This document shows, piece by piece, positions 21,039 to 63,143 of a stretch of 64,000 nucleotides of DNA. The notes below the pieces were generated by a model. That model did not search any database and was not told the DNA's origin. It saw nothing but the letters and a program-made list of their open reading frames with translations. Source of the DNA: Neisseria sp. Marseille-Q6792 (GTDB taxonomy: Bacteria; Pseudomonadota; Gammaproteobacteria; Burkholderiales; Neisseriaceae); contig NZ_OW969598.1 of the NCBI RefSeq assembly GCF_943181435.1, positions 372,001-436,000 on the forward strand, given 5' to 3'. Position numbers and translations under genes: made by a program. Every line of letters starts with the position of its first letter. The stretch's first letter is position 1.

Positions 21039-26264
<5,226 letters not shown>

Positions 26265-32684: not shown

Positions 32685-32764
32685 TATAACGGGAAACCTT
32701 CAGAAAGCTGAAACGGAAAAAGCAGGCGTTTGGGATTGAAAAGCGTCTGCTTCGGGCTTTTAAA

Positions 32765-32801
32765 ATGCCGTCTGAAACGCCAAACGGGCTTCAGACGGCA
32801 T
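32765..32801. terminator. Convergent uptake-sequence terminator between ppiA and ttcA
   Basis: ATGCCGTCTGAA at 32765-32776 pairs with TTCAGACGGCAT at 32790-32801, followed by T residues. Confidence 0.8.
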
Positions 32802-32817
32802 TTTTGACGGCGGAAGC

Positions 32818-33777
32818 CTATGCGCCGCAGGTTTTCGGCTTGTTCGCCAGAATGTTGATGACTTTGCGTTCGGCTTTTTGCGGCTCGATTTTGATTTCGC
32901 TCTCATCTTCTTCGCTGCCGTCTGAAAAACGTTCGGGCATTTTTTCGCTGTCAAACGCTAAATCGCCGCCGTGTTTCAGGTTTTGACCGCGTTCCAATCC
33001 GACAAAGTCAAAGAGTTCGGTATCGGCAAGGTGGGAAGGGATGACGTTTTGCAGGGCGGAGAACATCGATTCGATGCGGCCGGGGAAGCGTTTGTCCCAA
33101 TCGCGCAGCATATCGCCGATGACTTGGCGTTGCAGGTTGGGTTGCGAGCCGCAAAGGTTGCACGGGATGATGGGGAATTGTTTCAGCTCGGCGTATTTGA
33201 TTAAATCTTTTTCTTTCACATACGCCAGCGGGCGAATGACGATGTGTTCGCCGTTGTCGCTCACCAGCTTGGGCGGCATGGCTTTGAGTTTTCCACCGTA
33301 AAACATATTTAAAAACATGGTGGCAAGGATGTCGTCACGGTGGTGTCCTAAGGCGATTTTGGTGCAGCCCAATTCTTTTGCGGTGCGGTAGAGGATGCCG
33401 CGGCGTAGGCGGCTGCACAGCGAACAAGTCGTTTTGCCTTCGTCCAACACGCGTTTGACGGTGGAGTAGGTGTCTTCTTCGACGATTTTGTACGGCACGC
33501 CTATGCTTTCGAGATAGGTCGGCAATACTTCTTCGGGGAAACCCGGCTGCTTTTGGTCGAGATTGACGGCAACCAGTTCGAAATCAATCGGCGCACTGGC
33601 TTGAAGCTGGCGCAGGATATCTAAAAGGGCGTAGCTGTCTTTGCCGCCGGAGAGACAGACCATGATTTTGTCGCCCGGCTCGATCATGTTGAAATCGTTA
33701 ATCGCATCGCCGACGGCGTGGCGCAGGCGTTTGCTGAGTTTGTTGTTTTCCAGTTCTTGTTTGGTTTTTTTGGACAT
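32818..33777 (-). CDS. ttcA: tRNA 2-thiocytidine synthetase TtcA
   Basis: The 319-residue enzyme thiolates cytidine 32 of certain tRNAs using ATP and an Fe-S cluster. The PP-loop is [11 protein letters not shown]. The paired cysteine motifs [10 protein letters not shown] and CNLCGSQ are diagnostic of TtcA. The C-terminal tail ([17 protein letters not shown]) is acidic and variable and is encoded partly by an uptake sequence. Confidence 0.95.
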
Positions 33778-33837
33778 GGCGGTGGTTTGAAAAATTAGGG
33801 ATGCGGCATTGTAACCGAAAACAGGGGCGGTTTTAAA

Positions 33838-33866
33838 ATGCCGTCTGAAAAAGGTTCAGACGGCAT
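33838..33866 (-). terminator. Uptake-sequence terminator after ygfZ
   Basis: Inverted copies at 33838-33849 and 33855-33866 are separated by a 5-base loop. Confidence 0.75.
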
Positions 33867-33874
33867 TAGAGGGC

Positions 33875-34741
33875 TTATTCTGCATTTTCGGTTTTAAAGA
33901 AGAGATGAACCGCTTTGAAGATACCGCCGTTTGGGACGGTCAGTTCTTTTTGTGCGGCGGAGAATTTAATCACGGCAAGGGCGGTAAAGTTTTCCGAATC
34001 TTGAACGCTGTCGAGCACGATGCCGGCTTCTTCGCCGTCCGCCGTCAGCAGGATGCCCGCTTCGGCTGCCGAATTTCCCGACAATACCGCCAAGCCGCGT
34101 TTGACCTGCCCCCGATACTGGGCGCGCGCGATGATTTCCTGTCCCGGATAGCAGCCTTTTTTGAAGTGTACGCCGCCGATGATGTGCTGGTTGAGCATTT
34201 GGGCAACGGCAGTTTCTTTGGTAGCCGCGCATATCCACGGATAACCGCTGCGGATTTCGTGCAGCCGCCACGCGCTTTCGGCGGCGGCGTCATAAAGGGG
34301 CAGGGCGTTTTTGGGGGCGATGTGCAAAATGCCCCGATGGGGCAGGACGACGGAACAGATGCCGTCTGAAACGCATTCGGCGGTAAAGGCAAGACTGGGT
34401 TCTTGCGCGGCAAGCGGTTCGGCGGATGCTGCCAACTCTGCGCCGACGGCGTAATCTTCAAGGATTTCAAAAACGACTTTGGCACGCAGGACAAACATCC
34501 GCAGGCGTTTGATCGTTGCTTCAAGCAAGTCTTGCGCCATAATCAGCAGCAAATCGCCGCCTCGGTTGACGACAATCATATTGGCGATGACGCGGCCTTT
34601 GGGCGTGTTGTAAGTCGCGTAACACGCCTGTCCGGCCTGAAGATGGTTGATGTCGTTGGAAAGCTGTCCGTGCAGGAAGGTTTGGCGGTCTTCGCCGCTA
34701 ACGCGCGCCACGCCGAAAAAGGGCAGTAAGGTTTTCATCAT
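33875..34741 (-). CDS. ygfZ: Folate-binding Fe-S cluster assembly factor YgfZ
   Basis: The 288-residue tetrahydrofolate-binding protein assists maintenance of certain Fe-S enzymes. It shows the family hallmark KGCYPGQEIIARAQYRGQ with its conserved Cys, and an N-terminal segment with FLHGQLSNDI. Two consecutive ATG codons begin the frame, and the choice between them changes one residue. It is convergent with nothing; the RidA-like gene lies upstream on the same strand. Confidence 0.93.
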   Translation of the reverse strand: MMKTLLPFFGVARVSGEDRQTFLHGQLSNDINHLQAGQACYATYNTPKGRVIANMIVVNRGGDLLLIMAQDLLEATIKRLRMFVLRAKVVFEILEDYAVGAELAASAEPLAAQEPSLAFTAECVSDGICSVVLPHRGILHIAPKNALPLYDAAAESAWRLHEIRSGYPWICAATKETAVAQMLNQHIIGGVHFKKGCYPGQEIIARAQYRGQVKRGLAVLSGNSAAEAGILLTADGEEAGIVLDSVQDSENFTALAVIKFSAAQKELTVPNGGIFKAVHLFFKTENAE

Positions 34742-34771
34742 TTGCCTACTCTGAAATATAAGGAAATCTGT

Positions 34772-35134
34772 TTATGCGGTTGCCGCATCTTTCTTCACGG
34801 CGGTTACTTTGATTTCGACGCGCCACTCCGGACGGGCGAGCCGCGCTTCCACGCAGGCACGGGCGGGCGTTCTGCCGGCGGCAACCCAAGCGTCCCATAC
34901 GCCGTTCATTTCCGCATAGTCGCCCATATCGCGCAGATAGATGACCGCATCCAAAACGTGTGCCTTATCCGAGCCGCATTCCGCCAGCCAGCGGTCGATT
35001 TGGACAAGCACGTCGGCAGTCTGTTCGGCAGCCGTTTCACCGTTTTCGGGAACCATGCCGGAGAGGAAAATCAAGCCGTTTGCGCCGACGGCTTCGGAAT
35101 AGTGGGGCGTTGTGCCGAAATATCGGATATCCAT
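34772..35134 (-). CDS. RidA/YjgF-family protein
   Basis: The 120-residue cytosolic protein belongs to the family that hydrolyses reactive enamine/imine intermediates. Typical features are LIFLSGMVPENG near residue 20, VLDAVIYLRDMGDYAEMN, and the C-terminal ARPEWRVEIKVTAV, which includes an Arg (PARACVEAR) in the family active-site position. The ATG at 35134 has AAGGAAA upstream. It may be a YjgF subgroup without deaminase activity. Confidence 0.85.
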   Translation of the reverse strand: MDIRYFGTTPHYSEAVGANGLIFLSGMVPENGETAAEQTADVLVQIDRWLAECGSDKAHVLDAVIYLRDMGDYAEMNGVWDAWVAAGRTPARACVEARLARPEWRVEIKVTAVKKDAATA

Positions 35135-35208
35135 ATCGGTTTCCTTTGATAAAGGGGATATATGGTAACATTGCGCTTGACCGATTTCCATGTTTTGCAT
35201 GACGAAAA

Positions 35209-35688
35209 ATGAGTAAACACACTTATCCGATAACACCTGCCGTACGCGTTTTGCGTGAAAACGGCATCGAATTTGAACCTTTTACCTATGCCTATGAGGA
35301 ACACGGCGGCACGGCGCAGTTTGCGCGCCTGTTCGGCAAAGACGAACACTTAGTCATTAAAACCATTGTTTTACAGGATGAAAACAGGCAGGGGCTGATT
35401 GTCTTGATGCACGGCGACAAACAGATTTCAACCCGCAATCTGGCGCGGCATTTGGGTGCGAAACACATCGAACCCGCCACGCCCGCACAGGCAAACAAGT
35501 GGACGGGCTATCTGGTCGGCGGCACAACGCCGTTCGGCATCCGGACAAAATTGGATATTTACGTCGAGCAGTCGGTGATGGATTTGGAAACCATCTATAT
35601 CAACGGTGGAAAACGCGGGTTCATTATCGGTATCCGCCCCGATGATTTAAATATTTTGAATCCGAAAACAATACAGGCAGCGGTTTGA
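35209..35688 (+). CDS. ybaK: Cys-tRNA(Pro)/aminoacyl-tRNA deacylase YbaK
   Basis: The 159-residue protein edits mischarged tRNAs, chiefly Cys-tRNA(Pro). It has the YbaK/EbsC fold with FGKDEHLVIKTIVLQD carrying the conserved lysine, and GGTTPFGIRTKLDIYVE. It is divergently transcribed from the RidA-like gene with only 74 bases between starts, so their promoters overlap. Confidence 0.92.
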   Translation: MSKHTYPITPAVRVLRENGIEFEPFTYAYEEHGGTAQFARLFGKDEHLVIKTIVLQDENRQGLIVLMHGDKQISTRNLARHLGAKHIEPATPAQANKWTGYLVGGTTPFGIRTKLDIYVEQSVMDLETIYINGGKRGFIIGIRPDDLNILNPKTIQAAV

Positions 35689-35709
35689 CAGGGAAGTATA
35701 AGGAACAAT

Positions 35710-36432
35710 ATGGACAAAGATTTGTATGCCGTATTGGGCGTGTCGCCGCAGGCGGGGGCGGACGAAATCAAACGCGCCTACCGCAAGCTGGCGATGAAAT
35801 ACCATCCCGACCGCAATCCGGGCAATCCGCAGGCGGAAGAAAAGTTCAAAGAAATCCAACGGGCTTACGATACGCTTTCCGACCTGTCGAAACGGACGCA
35901 ATACGACGCGTCCTTCAGACGGCATGATGAACGCGGGCGGCAGGAAGAGGCATTCCGCCGCGAACAGGCGCGCAGGGAGCAGTTTTACCGCGAACAGATG
36001 CGCCGCGAACAGGCATTCAGACAAGAGTTTGAACGGCAGGCTTCACGTTCGCGCCATGCTTACGAACCGTCCGGCAGCGGAAGCGGGCGCAACTATGTCC
36101 TCGCCGCCTACATCCTGTTCGGTTTGGGTGCAATCATGCAGTTCATGCCCATAGTCGGCGTGATTTTCGCCTATATGCCCATAGTCGGCGTGATTCTCGC
36201 CTATATGAAACGGAACAGTTTGGACAGCATTGTCTATGCCGCACATACCGAATACCTGATTAAAACCTTTTGGCGCACATTTTGGCTTTATCTTTTGGGC
36301 GCGCTGACTGCCCTTTTGGGTATCGGCGTGCTGATTATTATTGCAACGAACGTCTGGTATTTCTACCGCATCATCGCCGGCTTTATACGCTTCAACGGCG
36401 GCAGGGCGGTTGCACCCGAGAAATGGATATAG
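35710..36432 (+). CDS. Membrane-associated J-domain protein
   Basis: The 240-residue protein has an N-terminal J domain (residues 1-70) with the HPD motif in [12 protein letters not shown], which stimulates Hsp70 ATPase. A charged Arg/Glu-rich coiled segment (75-115) follows, then hydrophobic helices from about 130 to 225. The first hydrophobic segment contains a tandem 10-residue repeat, [10 protein letters not shown] then [10 protein letters not shown]. It resembles inner-membrane J proteins with a DUF4870-like C-terminus; that assignment is tentative. Confidence 0.85.
36145..36204 (+). repeat. 30-bp in-frame tandem duplication in the J-protein gene
   Basis: Positions 36145-36174 and 36175-36204 differ by a single base (a T/C near the end of the unit). 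Each encodes [11 protein letters not shown]. Confidence 0.9.
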
Positions 36433-37309: not shown

Positions 37310-37331
37310 TCCGGCTGATTGATATAATTAA

Positions 37332-37369
37332 ATGCCGTCTGAAACAGGAAATGCTGCTTCAGACGGCAT
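37332..37369 (+). terminator. Inverted uptake-sequence terminator
   Basis: ATGCCGTCTGAA at 37332-37343 pairs with TTCAGACGGCAT at 37358-37369, followed by TTTT. It isolates the hemophore cassette from upstream transcription. Confidence 0.85.
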
Positions 37370-37394
37370 TTTGTTATATGGGCAGATTCAAAAC

Positions 37395-37445
37395 TTAATC
37401 AATAATAATTATTATTAATGATAATTTAAATATTAATAATAATTA
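37395..37445 (+). promoter_or_regulatory. Fur-box-like operator upstream of the TonB receptor
   Basis: A very AT-rich palindromic stretch, including AATAATAATTATTATTAATG at 37401-37420 and ATGATAATT just after, resembles overlapping copies of the Fur consensus (GATAATGATAATCATTATC). It lies about 70-110 bases before the start of the receptor gene, where iron control of a heme or iron receptor would be expected. Confidence 0.65.
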
Positions 37446-37513
37446 AAAATTTCAAATAATCCTTATGTGAGTGTATCTTAATAAATTCATTTTATATTCT
37501 CAATAAGGAATAC

Positions 37514-40500
37514 ATGATGTCCGGATTCTCCCCCAAACCTAAGACCATTATCCTAAGCCTTGCAGGTGCATTTGGCGCATTGGCTTTTGCAGACACCCCG
37601 AACAATACCGAACAGCAGAAAGAACTGAATACCATAGTCGTCCATGGCAAACGCAGTGCCGACCAAAAAGGTGCGGACGACGTGTATTACAAAAACGTCT
37701 CCAACGCCTACGTCGGTAAAGAATACCTCGAACGCTACCGCGTCCAATCCGCCGGCGACGTGCTCAAAGGCTTGAACGGCGTGTATAACATGAACACCCG
37801 CACCGCCGGCGGCGCGATTACGCCCAATATACGTGGCATTACCGGCAAGGGCCGCATCCCCGTTACCGTGGATGGTACAGAGCAAACCATTGACGTATGG
37901 ATGAACAACTACGGCGTGGGCGACCGCAACTATCTTGATCCCGCCCTGTTCCGCAGCATTGCGGTGGAAAAAAGCCCCGCCCTCACGCGCGGCGTGAAAT
38001 CGGGTGTCGGCGGCGCGGTAACCATCCGCACCATCGAAGCCGACGACATCGTGCCGGAAGGGAAAAAATTCGGCTTCCAGCTGAAAACCGAGTTTGCCAA
38101 CAACAGCCGCCGCCCAGCCAACAACCTCAACCAATGGCTGGGCTGGGAAGACTACCGCACCCTGCCGCTCGGTGCCACCGCCGACGGCGCGGGCGGCGGT
38201 GTCGACCCGCTCACCGGCGAGCAAAGCCCGCAGGCGTTGGTGGTAGACAACTTTACCCCGCCCGCACACAAAAGCGGCCGCGACAACTGGCGCTTCGGCG
38301 GCGACCGCAGTTATATGGCCGCCGCCGCCTTCAAAACCGAACTTTCAGACGGCCTGGCCGCCTACAGCTACCGCAACAAAGGCAACTACTTTGCCGGCAC
38401 CAAGGGGGCGGAAGGCTACCTGCACAATCCGGTGCACGATCTGCAAAAATGCTACGATAAAGGCGGCAGCGACTTCGACTGCAAAAATTCCGCCACCTTC
38501 ATCCCCAATATGGCGCGCATCTACCACCCCGGGGTGGAAGTGCTCAACAGCAACACCGAAACCAAAACCCTGCTGCTGAAAAACAACTGGCACCTGCCCG
38601 GCAGCCATCGGCTCGGCTGGCAATATATGCGCACCGACGTGCGCTTCGGCGAAATCAACCCCTTCCACACCACCTATGTGATGAATATGGAAGAGCATAA
38701 TCCCAGCAGCCGCCCCAAAGAACTGTCGCCACAGGCGCAGAGCATCGATTCCACCATCCGCACCGATACCTACAAACTCGGCTGGGCCTGGAAGCCGGAA
38801 GGCAGCCGCTGGGTCGACCTGCAGGCCAACCTGTGGCGCATCAAAACCAACAGCACCCGCCACCAGAGCGGCGGCATGGATTTGTCTTCCGCCTACCCCG
38901 ATCCCTTCTACGACGTTTGGTATTGGTGTACCCAACGCGGCCGGATACCGCCCGAGCACGTCGACAACTACAGCAGCTGCAACGACCTGATGAATGATTT
39001 CGGCGTCAACGGCAAGACCAAAGAACAGGTGTTGGCCATGACCCCGAATGACAACGGCCGATTCCGCGTGATTTCCGGCGCCGAGCAGAAAACCCGCGTT
39101 AGCCGCACCGGTTTCGATATCAGCAACCGCTTCCGCCTCAGCGACCGCCTGAGCATGACCTTGGCCGCCGATTATCAGAAAGAGAAACTGGCGGAGGAAG
39201 TGGAAATCGTCAATTCAAAAGACCTGTTCAATCTGGCCGGCATGGTCACCAGCATGGCCAAGCTGGCCGGCCCGCGCGGCGGCGATCGGCGCGAATGGGG
39301 CACTAATTTGGTATTCGACTGGCAGGCCACCAACCGTCTGAAAATCTCCGCCGGCATCCGCTACAACAACTTCCGGGGCTTCGATACCGCTTTGGCGGAA
39401 GGGCGTGCCCGCCGTGACCCGCGCTATCAGGCAGGCGATGGAAACCAGTATTATGCCGATGGTGCCTATCTGCCGTATTTCGAACTGGCAGGCGATCAGG
39501 AGCGGCGTGACTGGAATGTGGTGGCCGAACAGCTTCGGCAGGCGTATCAGTCAGGCGATGCTGCCGCCATTGCCGCGGCAGAACAGGCAGCACAGGCGCA
39601 CGGTGCCCGTTACCATTTGCTGAAATACTATGACGGCTCGTATCGTACCGATGGTTATGTGTATATCGGCAACGATGGCCGTGCCTATTCTGCTGGCGGA
39701 CGGTTCGGCGAGGTTAACGAGGTACAGAACCAACCGCTCTATCGGGTGCGCCCCGTTTATGTGCCGTTTGTCAACGGCAAGCTGGACAGCGGCGCATTGC
39801 CCCAGCATTTTCATGATTTCGTCAGCAATTATCAGGAAAAAGTGACCAATCCGCAGGGGCTGCACGGGACGCATTATCGATATTGGGCAGGCATGGGGAA
39901 TACTTTCGACTGTATAAGAAGTGATGCGACCTCTTGCCTTGCTCATAACCATGCGGGAAAAGCAACCAATTTTGAAGTCGGCTATCCCGAGTACAGTGAT
40001 GATACCAATACCGGTTCCAAAATCATCGGTCGGCACTATACCGAGGAACAGTATTGGGCGCAGCCCAAACCGATCCGTGCCCATGCCTGGGCGCCGACCA
40101 TCGCCGTCAGCTACGATCTGACCGACAACAGCCACCTGTCCGTACGCTATGCGCAGATGAGCCGCTTCCCCAGCGTGTATGAGGTGGGCAGTTTTTATAA
40201 CGACGTGACCTATGTCGGTATGCCGAAGGCCCCAAATTTCCGCTTCAAGCCGGAACGCAGTCGCAGCTGGGAAATCGGCTACAGCTTCAATTTTGCCCCG
40301 TATTGGAGCCGGCTGCGTGCCGGCGATATGCGCCTGACCTACTACCGCAACCGTATCCAAAATGTGATCGAAACCACAGATTATTTCCGCACCGTGCAAT
40401 ACGACCGCAAGGACACCGCCGGGCTGGAATGGCAGAGCCGCATCGACACCGGCCGCTTCTTTGCCGCGCTCGGTGCCACCTACCGCCTGAAACAGCAGAT

Positions 40501-40945
40501 GTGTGACCGCGATACCACTTTCGATTACGACCCTTATGGCGCCAAAGGCGTGCCGATCTGCATCGAAGGCGGCTACGGCAGTACGCGCGGCTATCAGGCC
40601 TTGCAGCCGAAATATTCAATAAACCTGGATGCCGGGGTGCGCCTGTTGGGCGAGAAACTGGAGCTCGGCCTGCGCGGCATCTACCACAGCCGGGTCAACA
40701 CCAAGCAATACGACCAACTGCTGCAAAAGGATTTGGGCATCATCTTCGATACCACCGGCAAGCCCCACCATTGGCGGTCATCGCTGACTTGGGACGTATA
40801 CGGCCGTTACCAGCTGCACAAAAACCTCAACGTCAACCTCGGCATCACCAACCTGACCAACCGCTACTATCTCGACCCGATGTCCAACGTTGCCGCCCCC
40901 GGGCCGGGCCGGACGGTTACCTTTGGGCTGACTGCCAAGTTCTAG
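37514..40945 (+). CDS. TonB-dependent receptor, HphR-like (hemophore/heme receptor)
   Basis: The 1143-residue outer-membrane protein has a signal peptide (to about residue 26, GALAFA), a TonB-box-like start (ELNTIVVHGK), a plug (SAGDVLKGLNGVYNMNTR; RGITGKGRIPVTVDG) and a large barrel ending TVTFGLTAKF with the expected terminal Phe. Four cysteine-bearing extracellular-loop segments are visible (CYDKGGSDFDC; WCTQRGRIPPEHVDNYSSC; FDCIRSDATSC; MCDRDTTFDYDPYGAKGVPIC). AAGGAATAC precedes the tandem ATG. The hemophilin-like and Slam genes follow, so I infer that it takes heme or another iron source from that secreted protein. Size also fits gonococcal TdfG, but I cannot confirm that identity. An AG-dialect uptake sequence occurs inside the gene at 38344-38355. 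Confidence 0.88.
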   Translation: MMSGFSPKPKTIILSLAGAFGALAFADTPNNTEQQKELNTIVVHGKRSADQKGADDVYYKNVSNAYVGKEYLERYRVQSAGDVLKGLNGVYNMNTRTAGGAITPNIRGITGKGRIPVTVDGTEQTIDVWMNNYGVGDRNYLDPALFRSIAVEKSPALTRGVKSGVGGAVTIRTIEADDIVPEGKKFGFQLKTEFANNSRRPANNLNQWLGWEDYRTLPLGATADGAGGGVDPLTGEQSPQALVVDNFTPPAHKSGRDNWRFGGDRSYMAAAAFKTELSDGLAAYSYRNKGNYFAGTKGAEGYLHNPVHDLQKCYDKGGSDFDCKNSATFIPNMARIYHPGVEVLNSNTETKTLLLKNNWHLPGSHRLGWQYMRTDVRFGEINPFHTTYVMNMEEHNPSSRPKELSPQAQSIDSTIRTDTYKLGWAWKPEGSRWVDLQANLWRIKTNSTRHQSGGMDLSSAYPDPFYDVWYWCTQRGRIPPEHVDNYSSCNDLMNDFGVNGKTKEQVLAMTPNDNGRFRVISGAEQKTRVSRTGFDISNRFRLSDRLSMTLAADYQKEKLAEEVEIVNSKDLFNLAGMVTSMAKLAGPRGGDRREWGTNLVFDWQATNRLKISAGIRYNNFRGFDTALAEGRARRDPRYQAGDGNQYYADGAYLPYFELAGDQERRDWNVVAEQLRQAYQSGDAAAIAAAEQAAQAHGARYHLLKYYDGSYRTDGYVYIGNDGRAYSAGGRFGEVNEVQNQPLYRVRPVYVPFVNGKLDSGALPQHFHDFVSNYQEKVTNPQGLHGTHYRYWAGMGNTFDCIRSDATSCLAHNHAGKATNFEVGYPEYSDDTNTGSKIIGRHYTEEQYWAQPKPIRAHAWAPTIAVSYDLTDNSHLSVRYAQMSRFPSVYEVGSFYNDVTYVGMPKAPNFRFKPERSRSWEIGYSFNFAPYWSRLRAGDMRLTYYRNRIQNVIETTDYFRTVQYDRKDTAGLEWQSRIDTGRFFAALGATYRLKQQMCDRDTTFDYDPYGAKGVPICIEGGYGSTRGYQALQPKYSINLDAGVRLLGEKLELGLRGIYHSRVNTKQYDQLLQKDLGIIFDTTGKPHHWRSSLTWDVYGRYQLHKNLNVNLGITNLTNRYYLDPMSNVAAPGPGRTVTFGLTAKF

Positions 40946-40965
40946 CCGCAGGGCGGAGTGGGGTT

Positions 40966-41004
40966 TTCAGGTAGCCTGCGGGTATGGCGGGAAGGCTACC
41001 TGAA
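40966..41004 (+). terminator. Hairpin made of inverted Eikenella-dialect uptake sequences
   Basis: TTCAGGTAGCCT at 40966-40977 is the exact complement of AGGCTACCTGAA at 40993-41004. The stem is the eikDUS 12-mer rather than the Neisseria one. It follows the receptor stop by about 20 bases and probably terminates or attenuates its transcript. Confidence 0.88.
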
Positions 41005-41087
41005 AACGGATTGGATATAACAACAAACAATTGAACACTTCGGACGCAAAACCCAACCGGCCTCGTTTATCCGAGGCAATGGTTTTT

Positions 41088-41124
41088 ACCGTTTTTTCCG
41101 CCGGTTCGGCGGTAATAAAACGGT
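41088..41124 (+). promoter_or_regulatory. Long hairpin in the leader of the hemophilin-like gene
   Basis: ACCGTTTTTTCCGCC (from 41088) pairs with GGCGGTAATAAAACGGT (to 41124) around a short GGTTC loop, with a small internal mismatch. It ends 34 bases before the ATG at 41159. It may stabilise or attenuate the mRNA; there is no T run directly after it, so it is a weak terminator candidate. Confidence 0.5.
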
Positions 41125-41158
41125 GGCTTTTGTTTAACTCTTAATTAAGGAAACGATT

Positions 41159-42142
41159 ATGTCTATACGTAATAAAACCCTGTTGGCCGTCTTGCTGTGC
41201 GGCGTTTTTGGTGTGGCTGCGGCTGCTCCGGCTGGTGGTTCCAGCCAAAGGGAAAGCCAAGATCCAATTAGTGACCCGACGACAGTTCGCCCCGGCACCT
41301 CTGACAAGCAACCTTTCGGTGCCGGTAAGGCCGGTTTGGCATTCAGTATCAATAACGGTGGAAGTTGGTCGAAATCCATCAATCTGGATGATGGTCCGGT
41401 CAAATATATCCGTGCGAAATATCAGGCACCGATTAACGGCAACGATCCCTATGCCAATGTTGATGGTACGCGCAATCTGCAATATCTGTACTTAGGTGAT
41501 GTGAAACCAGTTATCGGCTGGTTCTACAACCCAACGTTGGGTCAGGTGTGGTATGAAAACCGCCACAACAACACTGAAGTGTACAGTGTGCGCCAGATAG
41601 CCAACCCGATCATTCCCGGTGCGCCCAAGTTCGGCGGCCTGGTGATCGCCAAGGTGCCGGGTATGGGCGGCAGCAACGGCAACGTCTTCTTCGGCGAATG
41701 GGCGCCGCGTGCCGGTAACCCGCAGAAAATCAGCACCGACCTGAATATGGCGGATGGTAAACGCACCGTTTGGTATGTGGGCGACAATCCCACCGGCAAC
41801 ACCACCGGTGTGAGAACCGCCACCTACAATGTGCTGGGTATCAATAAGCACACCCCGGGGCAGAACGATTTCTATACCGGTCAGGTAACCGCCACCTTCG
41901 GTTCTGGTATAACCGGGACGATGGCAGGCAGAATCAGCCGCAGTTCCGATCACGTCGATTTTGATCACGCCAAAATCGATAACAGAAATGGTACCTTTGC
42001 CGATCCCAGTCAAGGCATGACCGGCCGCTTCTACGGCAACCAGGCGGCAGCCATGGCCGGCTATACCACACGTGGTACCGGTAATGTCGGCGATGACGTA
42101 GCTTTCGGCGGTAGCGCCACCGATATTGAGACCCGCAAATAA
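41159..42142 (+). CDS. Hemophilin-like secreted Slam substrate (TbpB-type C-terminal barrel)
   Basis: The 327-residue protein has an N-terminal signal peptide cleaved near GVAAAA-PAGG. It lacks a usable lipobox (its only early Cys is preceded by VLL), so it should be soluble and released, unlike HpuA or TbpB. Residues about 25-215 form a ligand-binding domain with no cysteine. The last 105 residues have the pattern of TbpB-type 8-strand barrels recognised by Slam: FYTGQVTATFGSG and the closing GRFYG (289-293), NQAAAMAGYTT and VAFGGSATD. The gene order receptor-substrate-Slam matches the HphR-HphA-HsmM systems described in Acinetobacter and Haemophilus. Heme as ligand is an inference. AAGGAAACG lies upstream of the ATG. 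Confidence 0.82.
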   Translation: MSIRNKTLLAVLLCGVFGVAAAAPAGGSSQRESQDPISDPTTVRPGTSDKQPFGAGKAGLAFSINNGGSWSKSINLDDGPVKYIRAKYQAPINGNDPYANVDGTRNLQYLYLGDVKPVIGWFYNPTLGQVWYENRHNNTEVYSVRQIANPIIPGAPKFGGLVIAKVPGMGGSNGNVFFGEWAPRAGNPQKISTDLNMADGKRTVWYVGDNPTGNTTGVRTATYNVLGINKHTPGQNDFYTGQVTATFGSGITGTMAGRISRSSDHVDFDHAKIDNRNGTFADPSQGMTGRFYGNQAAAMAGYTTRGTGNVGDDVAFGGSATDIETRK

Positions 42143-42269
42143 CAGCTGCCATCCGATTTGGTTTGGCAACGGCTAGGCTGGATTTAACCCCTGAGGAGTT
42201 TCAAGCTGCCGTTTTATGCCGACTGCCAAGCCATATAAATCATCCGTCCGATACGGATTGCTGCTCGGT

Positions 42270-42304
42270 TTCAGGTAGCCCGTGTTCAACACAGGCTACC
42301 TGAA
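42270..42304 (+). terminator. Second Eikenella-dialect uptake-sequence hairpin
   Basis: TTCAGGTAGCC at 42270-42280 (11 of 12 bases) is inverted relative to an exact AGGCTACCTGAA at 42293-42304. It lies between the hemophilin-like gene and the Slam gene. Confidence 0.85.
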
Positions 42305-42412
42305 ATTTGATATTTGTAAATAAACATCGCCTATCCCATACGGTTTCGGCCTATCGGACATTTTGGGACAGCAATTAAAACCTGCGTTACTTTATCTTTT
42401 CGGAAGGCAACC

Positions 42413-43903
42413 ATGAACAAACCACTCAGCCTCGCCCTCTTCTGCCTGCTTCTGCCCATCACCGCCCACGCCAACAACCCCGCCGACGAACGCCGCCGCC
42501 TGCTGGACGAGGGCAGCCGCCAAACGCAGCAATACCGCGAAAGCGGTTGGCTGGACACGGAACAGGCACGCGGGGAAGTGGGGGAAAACGACGGCTACAT
42601 CATGATAGACGGTACAGTCTACCAAGTTGGTGATACGGCGGAAGAACTGGAAAGCGCGATTTACCACGCTCTCAACGCGCGGCAGTGGCACAAGGTGCGG
42701 CAGTTCGCCGCCCGCTACGCCAAACTGCCCCGGCACAAGCCCGCGCTGATTCATTTGGCCGATGCGCTGCAAAAACGGGACGAAGGGGATTTCCGCGCGG
42801 CGGGGAACAGTTTTCAGACGGCATTGGAAGCCGAACCTGACAACCCGCGCTTGCTGCTCGAAGCGGGGCGGTTTTATGCCGAAGACAACCAAAACAAAGA
42901 GTCCGCCGCCGCGTTTGAGAAAGTTCTGAAAACGGACATTCCCTCAGAAACCCGCCCCATCGTGGAAAACTACCTGTCCGAACTGGGCAAACGCCGCCGT
43001 TGGCACGGCCAAATCAGCCTCGGCTACGGCTACAACAGCAATGTAAACCAAGGCAACGGCATCAACCAATGCGTGTGGGAAATCGCGGGCATGTGCCTGA
43101 TGGAGCGTACCCTGCCTGCGCCAACGGATTCGACCTTCTCATCCTATAGCGCGACCGCCGAAAAAACCGTCCCGCTCAAAGGGCATCACGGCGTACAGGT
43201 GCGCGGTGTACTGTACGGCAACCGCTACACGGAAAAAGACAAAGATTCGGCAGCCATGCCGGATTACGGCTATCGCAACGGTTCGCTGTACGCGGGATAC
43301 GGCTATGCCGACGCACGCTCCTCCTTTTCCCTGCTGCCCTATGTCGAATACGACTTCCGCAACCGCCACACCCACTACCGCGCATGGGGCGCGGATGTTG
43401 ACTGGTCGCGCACACTCTCCCCGCACTGGCGCATCAACGCCCGTGCCGGAGCAAAAAAGACTGGATACGGCGGACAAAGCAAAACTTATTTTGCCGATTT
43501 CAAACAATACGAACTCGGCGCGGGGGCAGAATTTTCTATCACGCCGAAAAGCGGCCTGCTTGTAAATTTCGATGCCGCACGCAAAGCCTATCCCGAAAAA
43601 TCTTCTTCCAGCAAAGAATATACGGCTCGGCTGGGCGCGTATAGGCTTTTTTCGGGCGGTACTTATTTAAATGCCGTCCTGCTCTACCGCCGCAGCCTGT
43701 ATGATGCGGCAAGTTTCGTCAGCGATAACAAACGGCGGCGCGACAAGCAATACATCATGATGGCTGCGGCGGGTTTTCCGCAATGGAATATCAAAGGCGT
43801 ATATCCCGAACTGCGTTTCAGGCGAACAATCGCACACAGCAACGCGGTGTATTACCGCTACCGCCAAAACGAATGGCTGTTGGGTTTTAAATATCGGTTT
43901 TGA
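42413..43903 (+). CDS. slam: Slam-family outer-membrane translocator (type XI secretion)
   Basis: The 496-residue outer-membrane protein moves TbpB-barrel substrates across or onto the outer membrane. It has a signal peptide (ending TAHA), a periplasmic TPR-type region (about 80-185, with DEGDFRAAGNSFQTALEAEP) and a C-terminal barrel from about 196 (WHGQISLGYGYNSNVNQG) to the end, NEWLLGFKYRF, with a terminal Phe. This is the DUF560/Slam architecture and length. GGAAGG precedes the ATG. It is encoded next to its likely substrate. The gene carries one exact Neisseria uptake sequence near 42812-42823, in contrast to the two upstream intergenic regions. Confidence 0.93.
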   Translation: MNKPLSLALFCLLLPITAHANNPADERRRLLDEGSRQTQQYRESGWLDTEQARGEVGENDGYIMIDGTVYQVGDTAEELESAIYHALNARQWHKVRQFAARYAKLPRHKPALIHLADALQKRDEGDFRAAGNSFQTALEAEPDNPRLLLEAGRFYAEDNQNKESAAAFEKVLKTDIPSETRPIVENYLSELGKRRRWHGQISLGYGYNSNVNQGNGINQCVWEIAGMCLMERTLPAPTDSTFSSYSATAEKTVPLKGHHGVQVRGVLYGNRYTEKDKDSAAMPDYGYRNGSLYAGYGYADARSSFSLLPYVEYDFRNRHTHYRAWGADVDWSRTLSPHWRINARAGAKKTGYGGQSKTYFADFKQYELGAGAEFSITPKSGLLVNFDAARKAYPEKSSSSKEYTARLGAYRLFSGGTYLNAVLLYRRSLYDAASFVSDNKRRRDKQYIMMAAAGFPQWNIKGVYPELRFRRTIAHSNAVYYRYRQNEWLLGFKYRF

Positions 43904-43922
43904 CCAGTCCGGGTGATAAAAA

Positions 43923-43958
43923 ATGCCGTCTGAAAGGGCGCTTCCTTTCAGACGGCAT
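43923..43958. terminator. Convergent uptake-sequence terminator between slam and aspA
   Basis: ATGCCGTCTGAA at 43923-43934 pairs with TTCAGACGGCAT at 43947-43958. Confidence 0.8.
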
Positions 43959-43971
43959 TTGTCCGTAATGT

Positions 43972-45700: not shown

Positions 45701-48160
45701 TTACAGCGAAATTTTCACACCGGCGCGGATAGAACGTCCGGGCAGCGGCGCAATGTATTTGAGTATGGAGTTTTGCGCGCGCGCGGTACGGTTGGTCAGG
45801 TTTCGGCCGTCCAAGAACCATTCTGTGCTGTATCTGCCGTGTTTTTGCGTATGGCTGACATAGGCATCGAGCAGGGCGTAGGAGCCGAGTGAGGGTTCTT
45901 TGTATGCCGCAGCCATGTTTCCGGTGTGTTTGGCAGCGGCGTAGCGAGTCAGGCTGCTGCCGATTTGCCATGCCCCTTTGTTCCAGCTTGCACCCAGCCC
46001 GTAGCGGGAAACAGGCAGGTTGGGCATATAGTAGCCGTCATTGCGCAGGCGGTTTGAGTCCGCATTCCTACTGTCTTTGTCGTCGGCATGATTGCGAACC
46101 CTGTCGGCAAACAGGCGCAGTTCGAGTTGTCCGTATTGTTTCAGGTCGAAAAGTTGGGTCAGCTCAATTTCCAAACCTTGGATGCGGGTATCTGCCGCAC
46201 GCCAGTATTTGGTCGGCAGGTGGTTGCCGCCGTCATGTGCAACGTCAGACAGATAAATGTAGTCGTTGAATCGGGTTTGGTAATAGTTGGCGCGGAGTTT
46301 GCCGCCGTTCCACTCGAACTCGTTGCCGAATTCCCATGTTCTGGCAGTTTCCGGACGTAAGACGGAATCGGAAGAATAATTTTCCGAAGCAAGTTGCGCA
46401 TAATGGCTGCCGCCTGCATAGAGTTCGTTAATTTCCGGCGCGCGTTGGGAGCGGCTGTAACGGGCATTTATTTTCCAAAACGGAAGGGGTTTCCAACCGG
46501 TTGACGCATGGAAGCTGTTGAGGCTGTATTTGAGGTTGCTCCGTTGCTCAAGCCCTTTTTGGGAATCGGTATTACGGGCTGTTTTGTAGCTGTCCAAGTC
46601 AAGGCCGTGGCGGACATTGCCATAACGCCAACCAAGCGAGGCTTCATAGTTGCGGTATTTGAGGTTTTCCAAGACAAATATGCCGTATTCACGACTGTTT
46701 GTATCGGGCAGGTAGGAATAGTTGCCGGTACGTTTGCCGTTTAAGCCCGAAGATTCGGTATGGCGGCGTTTGTAGTCGGCTCCTATGCTGCCGTTAAATA
46801 GGGAGGAGAAGTGGTGGTTCAGCTCGATACGGTTTTGGAGGGTACGGCTGTCGAGGCTGTTAACCTTGGTCGAGCCCAAGAGTTCGGTATTCGGCGTATC
46901 GGTGTATGAGGTCAGGAAGCTGACGTTGTCCACCCAAGAGGATTGCGGACGGTAAAGTGCGTCCACAAGCCAGCGTGTTTGCTGAGAATAGACGGATGCG
47001 GGTTCGGCGGCAAGTTTGCGGTTGCCGTTGCCGTCGATATTGTAATAGGAGAAACCGGGAATACCGGAATGGTACAGGCTGCGGCTGACAGCGGCACCGA
47101 TGTGGCCTCTCTCGCCGATATAGCTGCCGCCGAATGAAACGCTGCGGTTTTTCAGGCTGCTGTTGCCCAGGCGGCCTTCGCGGACGGGCGTATCGTCGCG
47201 CATGGCGTGGACGGTGGTTTTACGGAACTCTTTCGAACCGTCGTAAAGCGGATTGTCAATCCAATCTGCAGAATTGCCCCATGAAGGTTTGTTCAACTTG
47301 TACATTTCTGAATCATCGAGGTGTTCGCCGTACTTTTTCTCCAACTCATTCAGCCATGCTCTGCCACCTTTGTGGACATAGCGGTAATAGCCCGGGTTCA
47401 ATTCTTCAGTAATAACGGGAGTAATCTGGCAAGACCACATCAGGCGCGAGTTGAGGCGGTTCGCTGGGTCGTAGCACAAATCGGGTTTGCTTGAGCCGGG
47501 GATGCGGTAGCCCGAAATTTGGCTGTTGGAAGCATCAAGATGCCATGCGAAATTACCGGTCTTGCCGTCGAAACGGAAGGCTTCGTTGTGCGGGGTGTTG
47601 TAGCCGCCGCTCAATTCGATTTTGCCGCCGAAGTCTTGTTCCGGCAGTTTGTGCGGGATGATGCCGGTATCGACATCAACCGCGCCGCCGATGGCGTTGC
47701 CGCCGTATAGGACTGCCGCTGAAGATTTCAAAACCGTAATTTTATCTGCTAAAAACGGATTGACCATGGTCGGCAGGTTTCCGCTGATTGCGGCCATATT
47801 GGATACACCCATGCCGTTTTCGCTGATATAGACGCGCGAACCGCTCAAGCTGCGGATTTGAGGCAGACCGGTGTTGGGGCCGAAACCGGCGTTTTGTACG
47901 CCGCCGACTTTTTCCAAAGTCTGACCGAGTGAGACGGCGCGTTTGGTTTTCAAATCATGAGCGGTTAGCACGTCGCCGTCTCCTAAAACGTCCTTAGCCT
48001 GCAGGTCGCGGCTGCTTTTGTCTTTGTGCGCGTTAACGTTGACTTGCGGCAACTCGGCAGATGTCATGCCTTCTGCGTAGCATGATGCGGAAAGCAGAGA
48101 TAGCAGGATGATGTTGAGATTAAAAAGACGATGCGTATTTAGCTTAAACGGAGTAGTCAT
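45701..48160 (-). CDS. TonB-dependent outer-membrane receptor, ligand unknown
   Basis: The 819-residue receptor has an N-terminal signal sequence (LLSLLSASCYAEG), a TonB-box-like segment (ELPQVNVNAHKDKSS), a plug (SLGQTLEKVGGVQNAGFG; KITVLKSSAAVLYGGNAIGG) and a 22-strand barrel. It ends RSIRAGVKISL, so the last residue is Leu rather than the usual aromatic. The layout recalls the ZnuD branch, yet the His-rich loops of meningococcal ZnuD are absent and a Cys pair (DLCYDPANRLNSRLMWSCQ) is present instead. I would not call it ZnuD. The promoter region is AT-rich, but I cannot support a specific Fur or Zur site. Confidence 0.85.
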   Translation of the reverse strand: MTTPFKLNTHRLFNLNIILLSLLSASCYAEGMTSAELPQVNVNAHKDKSSRDLQAKDVLGDGDVLTAHDLKTKRAVSLGQTLEKVGGVQNAGFGPNTGLPQIRSLSGSRVYISENGMGVSNMAAISGNLPTMVNPFLADKITVLKSSAAVLYGGNAIGGAVDVDTGIIPHKLPEQDFGGKIELSGGYNTPHNEAFRFDGKTGNFAWHLDASNSQISGYRIPGSSKPDLCYDPANRLNSRLMWSCQITPVITEELNPGYYRYVHKGGRAWLNELEKKYGEHLDDSEMYKLNKPSWGNSADWIDNPLYDGSKEFRKTTVHAMRDDTPVREGRLGNSSLKNRSVSFGGSYIGERGHIGAAVSRSLYHSGIPGFSYYNIDGNGNRKLAAEPASVYSQQTRWLVDALYRPQSSWVDNVSFLTSYTDTPNTELLGSTKVNSLDSRTLQNRIELNHHFSSLFNGSIGADYKRRHTESSGLNGKRTGNYSYLPDTNSREYGIFVLENLKYRNYEASLGWRYGNVRHGLDLDSYKTARNTDSQKGLEQRSNLKYSLNSFHASTGWKPLPFWKINARYSRSQRAPEINELYAGGSHYAQLASENYSSDSVLRPETARTWEFGNEFEWNGGKLRANYYQTRFNDYIYLSDVAHDGGNHLPTKYWRAADTRIQGLEIELTQLFDLKQYGQLELRLFADRVRNHADDKDSRNADSNRLRNDGYYMPNLPVSRYGLGASWNKGAWQIGSSLTRYAAAKHTGNMAAAYKEPSLGSYALLDAYVSHTQKHGRYSTEWFLDGRNLTNRTARAQNSILKYIAPLPGRSIRAGVKISL

Positions 48161-52629: not shown

Positions 52630-54039
52630 TTACGCCATCGTGCGTATGTCGGTAAAGTGTCCGGTAACGGCGGCGGCGGCGGCCATAGCGGGGCTGACGA
52701 GGTGGGTGCGTCCGCCGTTGCCTTGACGGCCTTCAAAGTTACGGTTGGAAGTGGAGGCGCAACGTTGTCCCGGGGTCAGGCGGTCGGCATTCATGGCGAG
52801 GCACATAGAGCAGCCTGGTTCGCGCCATTCAAAACCGGCTTCGATGAAAATTTTGTCCAAGCCTTCTTTTTCGGCTTGTTCTTTGACCAAACCGGAGCCG
52901 GGGACGATTAACACGCGCTGTACGTTGGCGGCTTTTTTGCGGTCTTTGGCGATGGCGGCGGCTTCGCGCAAGTCTTCGATGCGGCTGTTGGTGCAAGAAC
53001 CGATAAAGACGATATCGACAGGGATTTCGTTTAATGGTGTACCGGCTTCCAAGCCCATATATTCGAGGGCGCGTTCCATGCCGCTGCGTTTGACGGGATC
53101 GGTTTCTTCGGCAGGATTAGGCACTTTGCCGCTGATGTCCAAAACCATTTCGGGCGACGTGCCCCAAGTAACTTGCGGTTCGATGTCTTCGGCTTTGAAG
53201 TGGTATTCTTTATCGAATACGGCACCCTCGTCGGAAACCAGCGTGCGCCAGTATTCGACAGCTTTGTCCCACGCTTCGCCTTTAGGTGCGAAGGGTTTGC
53301 CTTTTACATAGTCGATGGTGGTTTGATCGACGGCAACCATACCGGAACGCGCTCCTGCCTCAATCGCCATATTGCATAAAGTCATGCGGCCTTCCATAGA
53401 AAGGCTGCGGATGGCTTCGCCGCCAAATTCGACGGCGTAACCCGTGCCGCCCGCCGTGCCGATTTGCCCGATGATGTAAAGTGCCACGTCTTTGGCGGTA
53501 ACGCCCGCTTTTAATTTGCCGTCAACGGCAATCAGCATGGATTTGGATTTTTTCGCGGTAATACACTGGGTTGCCATGGTGTGCTCGACTTCGGAAGTGC
53601 CGATGCCGTGTGCCAACGCACCGAATGCACCGTGGGTAGAAGTGTGCGAGTCACCGCAGACAACGGTCATGCCGGGCAGGGTAGCACCTTGTTCCGGGCC
53701 CATAACGTGTACGATGCCTTGGCCTTTATCCATAAACGGAAAGTAGGCGAGTGCGCCAAACTCTTTAATGTTTTTGTCCAAAGTATCGACTTGCAGTTTG
53801 GAAATCGGGTCTTGGATGCCTTTGTCCCAATCGCCGGTCGGGGTGTTGTGGTCGGCGGTGGAGACGACGCTGTCGATGCGCCACAGCTTGCGCCCCGCCA
53901 TTTTCAGGCCTTCAAACGCCTGCGGGCTGGTTACTTCGTGCACCAGGTGGCGGTCGATGTAAAGCAGGACAGTGCCGTCTTCTTCTTCGCGGACGACGTG
54001 GCTGTTCCAGAGTTTGTCGTAGAGGGTTTGTGCTGTCAT
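52630..54039 (-). CDS. leuC: 3-isopropylmalate dehydratase large subunit
   Basis: The 469-residue Fe-S subunit of isopropylmalate isomerase catalyses the second step of leucine synthesis with LeuD. It has the aconitase-family features [28 protein letters not shown] and [15 protein letters not shown], which hold the cluster cysteines. It is the first of the leucine genes in transcription order here. The 255 bases upstream separate it from divergent gshA and hold a palindrome at 54166. Confidence 0.96.
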
Positions 54040-54165
54040 GGTGTTGTTCTTTTGTGTGGGTAGTAATATAGGATGAAAATTCTAGACGGATTTTACATGT
54101 CATGCAACAAAATTTGTCTAATTTTTGAAGAAATGGAAAACTGAAAACAATTTGTATCTAAAAAT

Positions 54166-54180
54166 TAGACATATTGTCTA
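54166..54180. promoter_or_regulatory. Perfect 15-bp palindrome between leuC and gshA
   Basis: TAGACA-TAT-TGTCTA is perfectly symmetrical, and the half-site TTGTCTA recurs at 54114-54120. The pattern resembles a dimeric activator or repressor operator (for example LysR or GntR type). The regulator is not in the window, so the call is an inference. Confidence 0.5.
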
Positions 54181-54294
54181 TTTGAAAGAACAGTTATATT
54201 CAAAGAAAGATTTGATATGAAAGAATACTTGTCGGGATTCTTTTAAAGGCATTATTATTTGTACCTTGTTAAAACCACGTCAGGCAGAGGAAAG

Positions 54295-55644
54295 ATGAAA
54301 TTACCGGTTATATCGTCCGAGCATTTGGCTCAACTGCAGGCATTTGAAGCGAAAATCCTGTGTAACCACGTAAAAATCGAAGCATGGTTCCGTTCGCAGT
54401 GGAATGTGCACCGCCCGCCGTTTTATGGTTCGGTCGACATCCGCAATGCCGGTTACAAAATTTCGTCTATCGATATGAATTTGTTTCCGGGCGGCTTCAA
54501 TAATTTGAATCCCAACTTTATCCCGCTGGCGGCGGTTGCTGCGCAAGATGCGGTGCAGCGTGCCTGCGAAACGGCAAAATCCGTATTGATTATTCCTGAA
54601 AACCACACGCGCAATACGTTTTACCTGCAAAACGTTTACGCCCTCAGCGAGATTTTGCGCTCGGCAGGGTATGAAGTGCGCTTGGGCAGCCTGAATCCTG
54701 AGGTAACCGAGCCGACCGAGTTTGAAACCGCCTTGGGCGACAAAATCCTGTTGGAACCTTTATTGCGCACCCGCGAGCGCGTCCACCTTGCAGACGGTTT
54801 CTCGCCTTGTGTCGTCTTGTTGAACAACGACTTGTCTGCAGGTGTTCCCGACATTCTCAAAGACATCAGCCAAACCGTATTGCCTCCGTTGCACGGCGGT
54901 TGGACGACACGCCGCAAAACAGATCATTTCGGCGCGTATAACCAAGTTGCCGCCGAATTTGCCAAGCTGATTGACATCGACGAATGGCAGATTAACCCGT
55001 ATTTTGAAAAAATCGGCGGTTTGGACTTCCAAGGGCGGGAAGGCGAAGATGCGTTGGCAGAAGCGGTAGAACGCGTATTGGCGAAAATCCAAGCCAAATA
55101 CGACGAATCGGGCATTACCGATCAGCCTTTCGTGATTGTCAAAGCAGACGCAGGCACTTACGGCATGGGCGTGATGAGCGTCAAGTCCGCCGATGAAGTG
55201 CGCGGCTTGAACCGCAAAAACCGCAACAAAATGGCGAAAGTCAAAGAAGGCTTGGAAGTCAGCGAAGTGATTGTCCAAGAAGGAATTTATACCTATGAAA
55301 CCTTAAACGGCGCGGTGTGCGAACCCGTCGTCTATATGATGGACCGCTTCGTCATCGGCGGCTTTTTCCGCGTACACGAAGGGCGCGGTGCGGATGAAAA
55401 CCTCAACGCCGGCGGTATGGTGTTTGTGCCTCTGTCCAACAGCATCCCCACCGGCAACGGCGACAACTCCCAAGAAGCCCCCGAAGCCTGCAAGCGCGTA
55501 TTCGAGCAATGGGATGCGCTGGGTATGCCGCGATCCGAAAAAGACTGCGATGTCGATAATGTCCACAACCGCCTCTACGTTTACGGCGTAATGGCGCGCC
55601 TGTCGCTTTTGGCGGCGTCCATCGAGTTGGAAGAAACGGCGTAA
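54295..55644 (+). CDS. gshA: Glutamate--cysteine ligase, proteobacterial GshA type
   Basis: The 449-residue enzyme makes gamma-glutamylcysteine, the first step of glutathione synthesis, in the cytosol. It belongs to the proteobacterial-specific GshA family (Pfam GshA) rather than the E. coli fold. Conserved segments are HVKIEAWFRSQW, SVDIRNAGYKISSIDMNLFP and IVKADAGTYGMGVM. The ATG at 54295 follows AGAGGAAAG and gives the normal length; an upstream TTG would add 12 residues. Confidence 0.93.
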   Translation: MKLPVISSEHLAQLQAFEAKILCNHVKIEAWFRSQWNVHRPPFYGSVDIRNAGYKISSIDMNLFPGGFNNLNPNFIPLAAVAAQDAVQRACETAKSVLIIPENHTRNTFYLQNVYALSEILRSAGYEVRLGSLNPEVTEPTEFETALGDKILLEPLLRTRERVHLADGFSPCVVLLNNDLSAGVPDILKDISQTVLPPLHGGWTTRRKTDHFGAYNQVAAEFAKLIDIDEWQINPYFEKIGGLDFQGREGEDALAEAVERVLAKIQAKYDESGITDQPFVIVKADAGTYGMGVMSVKSADEVRGLNRKNRNKMAKVKEGLEVSEVIVQEGIYTYETLNGAVCEPVVYMMDRFVIGGFFRVHEGRGADENLNAGGMVFVPLSNSIPTGNGDNSQEAPEACKRVFEQWDALGMPRSEKDCDVDNVHNRLYVYGVMARLSLLAASIELEETA

Positions 55645-55662
55645 GACTGTTTTGAAATACAG

Positions 55663-55698
55663 ATGCCGTCTGAAACGCCAATCCGCTTCAGACGGCAT
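55663..55698 (+). terminator. Inverted uptake-sequence terminator after gshA
   Basis: ATGCCGTCTGAA at 55663-55674 pairs with TTCAGACGGCAT at 55687-55698. A third copy follows at 55729-55740. Confidence 0.8.
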
Positions 55699-55767
55699 TT
55701 CGGATATTTGGCGTGTGGGAACATCTGTTTCAGACGGCATCTCAGACTATTTTAAAAAAGGGAAAAC

Positions 55768-56445: not shown

Positions 56446-56517
56446 CACTCTGTTTTACATGCGGCGGCTCTGATAAAATAGCCGCTTCAACCGTATTCGA
56501 CAGATATCGTTAAGTTA

Positions 56518-57243: not shown

Positions 57244-57250
57244 ACACCCG

Positions 57251-57276
57251 ATGCCGTCTGAAGGTTCAGACGGCAT
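57251..57276 (+). terminator. Uptake-sequence hairpin after queH
   Basis: ATGCCGTCTGAA at 57251-57262 and TTCAGACGGCAT at 57265-57276, with only a 2-base gap; the inner bases form the loop. Confidence 0.7.
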
Positions 57277-57359
57277 CGGGTTCGGCATCGGCACGGGGAA
57301 AGGTTTGTCGGTTTGGCAATCGGCAAGCGGAAACCGCATTGACAAGTTTGCCGTTTTGA

Positions 57360-57466: not shown

Positions 57467-57500
57467 AAACACCCCGTTGCCGCGTCGGGAGGGCGGCATC

Positions 57501-63138: not shown

Positions 63139-63143
63139 AAAAC

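Follow-up and report, generated by a model that had tools for sequence, protein, structure and literature searches.

A bounded receptor-cargo-Slam island with Eikenella-type uptake sequences in Neisseria sp. Marseille-Q6792 encodes a predicted hemophilin-fold protein lacking the axial histidine

The window analyzed here, a 64-kb stretch of the Neisseria sp. Marseille-Q6792 genome (contig NZ_OW969598.1), contains three intact open reading frames (ORFs) on the plus strand in the order receptor, cargo, Slam. The first ORF (37514..40945) encodes a TonB-dependent receptor of 1143 amino acids (aa) with Plug and TonB_dep_Rec_b-barrel domains (Pfam PF00593/PF07715), and the second (41159..42142) encodes an exported Slam cargo of 327 aa with a predicted hemophilin fold. 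The third (42413..43903) encodes a 496-aa Slam, the outer-membrane translocator of type XI secretion, in which both domains of a type XI secretion system (T11SS) translocator were found, namely, the SlipAM barrel (PF04575; 119.4 bits, cut-off 22) and the N-terminal TPR domain (PF24575; 55.6 bits, cut-off 35.2). The positions and lengths of the three genes, as well as the receptor and Slam-family assignments, agree with those given in a first-pass annotation made from the sequence alone. The Slam is 97% identical to that of N. gonorrhoeae DSM 9188. A hairpin followed by a T-run in the receptor-cargo gap (41060..41077, plus strand) resembles a terminator, in a scan whose overall yield was near chance (14 found, compared with 10.7 in shuffled sequences; standard deviation, 3.4).

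The cargo matched the NCBIfam model NF041636, “Slam-dependent surface lipoprotein,” at 97.4 bits, passing its cut-off of 80. Approximately residues 1 to 23 form a signal peptide (41159..41227, plus strand; cleavage site placed by eye from the sequence), and the sole cysteine of the protein, Cys14, lies inside the hydrophobic stretch. A lipobox-like motif was present within the first 40 residues in none of the 76 family members, the window cargo included, which upholds the earlier claim that the protein has no lipobox. Judged by motif only, the cargo would thus share with the hemophilins a soluble nature and export by way of signal peptidase I.

An AlphaFold2 (AF2) model of the cargo was built on the 76-sequence alignment and replaced a first run with 21 relatives, which had given a poor handle (mean predicted local distance difference test [pLDDT] score of 48) and whose Foldseek result was not used. 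The model places an eight-stranded TbpB-type barrel at the C terminus (approximately residues 218 to 325; 41810..42133, plus strand), with strands at residues 220 to 323 and pLDDT values mostly above 90; this barrel was also indicated by Foldseek/VIA matches and by profile matches to six hemophilin-type chains in the PDB. The Pfam model TbpB_B_D matched only weakly (15.2 bits, cut-off 26). The structural match extended over model residues 21 to 321 and covered 228 of the 252 residues of the hemophilin 6om5, suggesting that the N-terminal handle likewise has the hemophilin fold, a similarity that was not detectable by single-sequence or profile searches of the sequence alone. Compared by structure, the model matched hemophilins far better than HpuA. 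The TbpB barrel predicted in the first-pass annotation is therefore modelled within a protein that resembles hemophilins across both handle and barrel, and the C-terminal motifs quoted there (GRFYG...MAGYTT...VAFGG) are present in the cargo. The window cargo matched neither HphA_N nor HphA_C of Pfam; at an E value of 0.01, 15 of 76 relatives matched HphA_N (best, 1.9e-5) and 14 of 76 matched HphA_C. When eight relatives were scanned singly, four matched HphA_N, in only its last 25 to 27 positions and under the curated cut-off.

The three genes fill an island of 6,549 bp (37372..43920) whose bounds were determined by comparison with empty sites. We searched 28 genomes for the flanking EamA gene and aspA and found both, at identities of at least 88%, in six siblings. 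The two genes are separated by 71 to 74 bp in five of the siblings (G001, G004, G008, G063, and G067) and by 6,662 bp both in the window and in the sixth sibling (G020, N. gonorrhoeae DSM 9188); in G010, they are neighbors without the island, and aspA is inverted. The alignment of all five empty-site sequences to the window breaks off at 37370 or 37371; it resumes at 43916 to 43921 in four cases and at 43947 in one. The edges of the island coincide with hairpins/terminators made of DNA uptake sequences (DUS) of the AT dialect, located at 37330..37371 on the left (AT-DUS at 37332, plus strand, and 37358, minus strand) and at 43921..43960 on the right (AT-DUS at 43923, plus strand, and 43947, minus strand). 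One such hairpin is found at the empty site and two at the filled site. No integrase or transposase gene was seen in the ORF list of the island.

In DSM 9188, the island occupies the same site and encodes proteins 95 to 98% identical to those of the window. By segment, the island is 94 to 100% identical between the two genomes, compared with 90 to 92% for the flanking EamA gene and aspA. The island is not distinguished by identity alone, because positions 32741-36177 reach 95.9% identity to DSM 9188, and we consider the greater identity of the island to be weak as proof of a separate transfer. A core segment of the window (52630-57435) is 91 to 93% identical to six gonococcus-group members, which places the window within this group, probably as a member distinct from those six. 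A search of the plasmid collection PLSDB returned 2 matches among 72,556 records (NZ_CP119142.1 and NZ_CP119140.1), both of them 2.17-Mb N. gonorrhoeae records that hold the entire island beside aspA at 96.5 to 96.6% identity. These records are filed as plasmids, and their size and content are chromosome-like; carriage on a mobile plasmid is not claimed, since the sole two matching records are of chromosome size.

The window contains 53 AT-dialect uptake sequences versus 3 exact copies of the sequence that we take to be the Eikenella-dialect DUS, and all 3 lie between genes of the island: an inverted pair at 40966..40977 (minus strand) and 40993..41004 (plus strand) and a single copy in the cargo-Slam gap at 42293..42304 (plus strand). 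The letters used for this dialect were borne out by genome counts, with 2,836 copies in G073 compared with 0 to 149 in the other 20 of the 21 genomes examined. The DSM 9188 locus holds 4 of the 11 exact copies in that genome. This dialect (eikDUS) has been described for Eikenella corrodens and N. shayeganii, and meningococci yielded no transformants with Eikenella-dialect DNA in published tests (PMC3630211; here and below, statements from the literature refer to the available parts of the articles cited). The island's origin is unusually clear in view of this mismatch: the cassette bears Eikenella marks, whereas the species group that carries it relies on another dialect. The best reading of the sequences is that the donor was Eikenella-like; the island may instead have come from N. 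shayeganii or from an unsampled relative. The closest named receptors outside the species group of the window are from Eikenella (92 to 94% identical); other Eikenella records are 81 to 84% identical and N. elongata receptors 81 to 82% identical to the window receptor.

We then examined 30 loci, 13 of which have a cargo of the window type: the window, DSM 9188, nine further family loci, L024 (Alcaligenaceae), and L025 (Corticimicrobacter). Excluded from this type were L067-L069, L085, L074, and the other hemophilin-like loci L072, L073, and L075-L084. At all 13 loci, the cargo lies between a receptor and a Slam of the same families as in the window (order, receptor-cargo-Slam), with the receptor on the opposite strand in L061; the number of independent loci is below 13, because the window and DSM 9188 represent the same insertion. 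The co-occurrence is thus conserved, and the proposal of the first-pass annotation that the genes form a self-contained cassette is supported. The receptors of the 13 loci are 46 to 100% identical to the window receptor, compared with 30 to 35% at the ten loci that have another hemophilin-like cargo or a receptor alone (L085), and 34 to 35% for receptors paired with cargos that keep the axial histidine described below (His-type cargos). Across loci, then, cargo type and receptor type do go together at the sequence level. L085 has a receptor and no cargo match, and the cargo of L074 is limited to a 157-aa piece. At the family level, 12 of the 83 genomes searched matched at an E value of 1e-30, 10 of them over the whole model. 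L067, L068, and L069 encode a Slam cargo with the same barrel type and a long proline-rich N terminus, and the 14- to 16-kb stretches covered contain no receptor of the window family.

By sequence family, and as a long TonB-dependent receptor adjoining a Slam cargo, the window receptor is of the TdfG type. In a 13-sequence alignment, it is 50% identical to P0230, an N. subflava protein named TdfG, and to P0239, and TdfG-type receptors of approximately 136 kDa are 47 to 50% identical to it. TdfG has been reported as the largest gonococcal TonB-dependent transporter, with a mass of 136 kDa and no known ligand (PMC9519893). Two TdfG-type relatives have masses of 136.6 and 136.9 kDa, compared with 128.6 kDa for the window receptor. 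The gonococcal cargo P0316 (318 aa, found in 410 contigs), which we regard as NGO0554-like on the basis of its length, sequence, and source name, belongs to the same family as the window cargo (approximately 55 to 56% identical). Based in part on locus L063, P0316-type cargos appear to pair with the TdfG-type receptors of approximately 136 kDa. These receptors and the 128.6-kDa receptor of the window may be alleles of one site. Each of the two 2.17-Mb gonococcal records has one place for a TdfG-type receptor and one for an NGO0554-type cargo at the limits used. A separate observation is that G007 (N. elongata) has six receptor matches at an E value of 1e-100, some of them partial, which suggests several paralogous TdfG-type receptors.

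The cargo alleles are mosaic. Among the 76 sequences, 24 of 2,850 pairs passed a split-identity filter, which required high similarity in one half (92% identity or more for the handle or 95% or more for the barrel) and no more than 65% identity in the other. When compared with the window cargo, P0018 is 95% identical in the handle and 44% in the barrel, while P0013 and P0007 are 71% identical in the handle and 99% in the barrel.

A system of this type is already known in Neisseria, because NGO0554 has been named in print as an HrpC homolog and SLAM cargo and ngo0555 as a SLAM. The consecutively numbered N. gonorrhoeae genes NGO0553-0554-0555 are of the same kinds as those of the island (putative TonB receptor, HrpC homolog/Slam cargo, and SLAM), and NGO0554, the HrpC (hemophilin) homolog, is iron repressed and peroxide induced (PMC8406197). 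This published precedent (PMC8406197, PMC12918729) contradicts the first-pass suggestion of a mode not among the standard neisserial iron systems. The window differs from NGO0553-0555 in its Eikenella-like alleles, and the common gonococcal cargo, P0316, is of the same family. Outside Neisseria, a close counterpart is HphR-HphA-HsmA of Acinetobacter baumannii, whose translocator, called HsmM in the first-pass annotation, is named HsmA in PMC8560813. The heme ligands of HphA are H43 and H106 (PMC8560813), whereas the window cargo has no histidine in the matching segment; the MPDH histidine of hemophilin (Hpl) from Haemophilus haemolyticus (6om5) is likewise absent from it. HpuA/HpuB with Slam also combines a TbpB-type barrel cargo with a TonB receptor, but HpuA is a lipidated hemoglobin-haptoglobin co-receptor, and the window cargo does not appear to be one.

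Inspection of the solved hemophilins placed a histidine just before an LG/MG motif in five of six sequences (MPDH in 6om5 and 8glo, PPSH in 7re4 and 9us7, and PGSH in 8gmm; the relevant part of 8gm3 was not displayed). On our reading of the motif, this histidine would correspond to H106 of HphA. Another set of Neisseria cargos retains the axial histidine in six of six aligned homologs (MPDHSHLGR, once MPNHSHLGR). The corresponding segment of the window family is P-x-A-P-K-F-G-G, and in the window cargo, APKFGG (residues 155 to 160; 41621..41638, plus strand) replaces the axial-histidine segment of hemophilins. Within Ala155-Pro156-Lys157-Phe158, the axial histidine aligned with Ala155 by MAFFT and by hhalign profile-profile comparison and with Phe158 by HMMER (6om5 and 8glo). 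Histidine occurred within positions 150 to 161 in 3 of the 76 sequences, always at position 157, which is lysine in 71. It was found at position 136 in 20 sequences and at 137 in 13 (33 at either), and 16 sequences, including P0316, have no histidine anywhere between positions 24 and 175. Invariant in all 76 sequences are Trp131, Tyr132, Glu133, Ser143, and Arg145, and the charged residues of the handle are strongly conserved (Glu133 and Arg145 in 76/76, Arg135 in 75/76, and Lys87 and Lys157 in 71/76 each). Two further loci (L075:7885-9800 and L076:6706-8631) carry tandem hemophilin-like cargo genes ahead of one Slam, with one copy keeping the histidine (PDHSH/PNHSH) and the other having tyrosine (NDYSNLG), and thus offer a natural case for ligand comparison.

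By sequence, the solved receptors most similar to that of the window are HasR and PhuR, both heme receptors, which have a histidine near the plug apex (GHGQRN and QTHRNY). This histidine is absent from the 13 aligned receptors of the window family. It is also absent from the receptors of the six Neisseria loci with His-type hemophilins, where the segment reads NNRNY in 6/6. The receptor is therefore neutral with respect to heme, because receptors of His-type cargos also lack the plug histidine, and we dropped its absence as an argument against heme.

In our view, the island is probably a transferable cassette for Slam-mediated (type XI) secretion and for uptake. Slam would export the 327-aa protein with its hemophilin fold into the medium, where it would act as a soluble carrier and pick up a ligand related to iron; the loaded carrier would then hand this ligand to the TdfG-family TonB-dependent receptor encoded alongside, presumably under iron regulation.

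Several points weigh against this interpretation. The NCBI name for the cargo family NF041636 is that of a surface lipoprotein, the axial segment of the window cargo is without histidine in either alignment register, and the receptor scored 208.7 bits against the heme receptor model TIGR01785, under its cut-off of 316.85. No secretion, binding, or growth experiment on this locus was found in the literature covered. The Fur-like operator of the first-pass annotation stands as an AT-rich stretch upstream of the receptor (37401..37419, plus strand) that matches the textbook Fur consensus at 14 of 19 positions, but it is weak, as this score was also reached by 104 of 2,000 sequences made by simple shuffling of the same 204-bp AT-rich region. 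In the available part of a gonococcal study, ngo0554, encoding a SLAM cargo, is Fur regulated and has two Fur boxes, and ngo0555, the SLAM gene, is itself without a Fur box (PMC12918729). Fur regulation of the island is still plausible, because its gonococcal counterpart ngo0554 has been reported to be Fur regulated.

With regard to the ligand, the first-pass annotation named heme, which was an extrapolation: heme is not established, given that the window protein lacks the hemophilins' axial histidine and has no HphA_N match, even though some relatives do. Heme is a possible ligand, but not through the axial histidine common to the solved hemophilins examined. It is quite possible that the cargo is an ordinary heme hemophore that holds heme in the same handle pocket by other ligands, for example, the invariant Tyr132 or His136 of the window protein. 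Such a role would fit the hemophilin fold of the handle, the proximity of the receptor to HasR and PhuR, the HphA_N matches of 15 of 76 relatives, and the invariance of Trp131 and Tyr132, and heme coordination already varies among known proteins, with one histidine plus Arg/chloride in Hpl versus two histidines in HphA (PMC8560813). It is harder to reconcile with a family in which histidine is rare in the axial segment, occurs at position 136 or 137 in fewer than half of the members, and is missing from positions 24 to 175 in 16, and in which the singly scanned HphA_N matches are short and under the cut-off.

Possible, too, is a carrier that has switched from heme to another ligand (a different metal chelate, a molecule resembling a siderophore, or a protein of the host), with the TdfG family as a non-heme branch of receptors. 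The changed axial segment lies in a handle whose charged set is strongly conserved, the His-type cargos of the same genus are paired with receptors of another group, no ligand of TdfG is known (PMC9519893), and the T11SS cargos include CrpC, called cobalt receptor protein (PMC12282271). However, positive evidence for any alternative ligand is absent, the receptors lend no independent support, as those of His-type cargos also lack the plug histidine, and some relatives still score with HphA_N.

Joining a change of ligand to transfer, we tentatively suggest, with some doubt, that TdfG-family receptors, orphans for two decades, may be fed by their own Slam-secreted carrier, which would have lost histidine heme ligation for another ligand, and that the pair may be swappable between Eikenella and Neisseria across the dialect barrier. 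For TdfG, the locus offers the hypothesis that the direct partner is a neighboring secreted protein rather than one from the host. A further suggestion from the locus is that a hemophilin fold alone need not mean histidine-ligated heme and that hemophore annotation needs testing.

Returning to the soluble carrier that we favor, it is unlikely that the cargo instead stays at the surface as a co-receptor, in the manner of HpuA with HpuB, given that a lipobox-like motif occurs in none of the 76 sequences and that the model matches hemophilins far better than HpuA. Least likely of all is a main role in peroxide protection rather than nutrient uptake, which the description of NGO0554 as protective against H2O2 damage (PMC2667262, PMC8406197) would favor but which is at odds with the linked TonB-dependent receptor at 13/13 loci and with Fur control in the gonococcus (PMC12918729), and the peroxide effects may stem from iron handling.

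In the literature, where the 2024 work on the subject was covered only in part, we did not find statements of the loss of the axial histidine across the branch of the window cargo, a tie of the TdfG receptor family to window-type cargos, a bounded island with the Eikenella uptake dialect, or mosaic handle/barrel cargo alleles. The available parts of PMC9519893 and PMC6172773 hold no link between TdfG and a Slam cargo.

Beyond the island, the window contains a second TonB-dependent receptor of 819 aa (45701-48160, minus strand), one gene (aspA) past the island, which matched ZnuD of NCBIfam at 143 bits (cut-off 950) and ZnuD of the PDB at 80.7 bits, consistent with a distant ZnuD-like relative. 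A 1691-aa protein (1852-6927, plus strand) has a trimeric-autotransporter-like C terminus with matches to EmaA/BimA anchors under the cut-offs. The 1741-aa protein encoded at 21039-26264 (minus strand) has a RecQ-family helicase (289 bits, over the cut-off) and, in the C-terminal half, a UvrD/Rep-like helicase (under the cut-offs), and would represent an unusual double helicase. Copies of a repeat of approximately 110 bp were found at about 1436-1542, 57351-57467, and 63033-63142, as well as beside a cargo gene in L010/L027. When positions 52630-57435 were used as a query, each of the six siblings gave 42 to 49 matches, and nearly all of those listed were short matches to 57354-57435.

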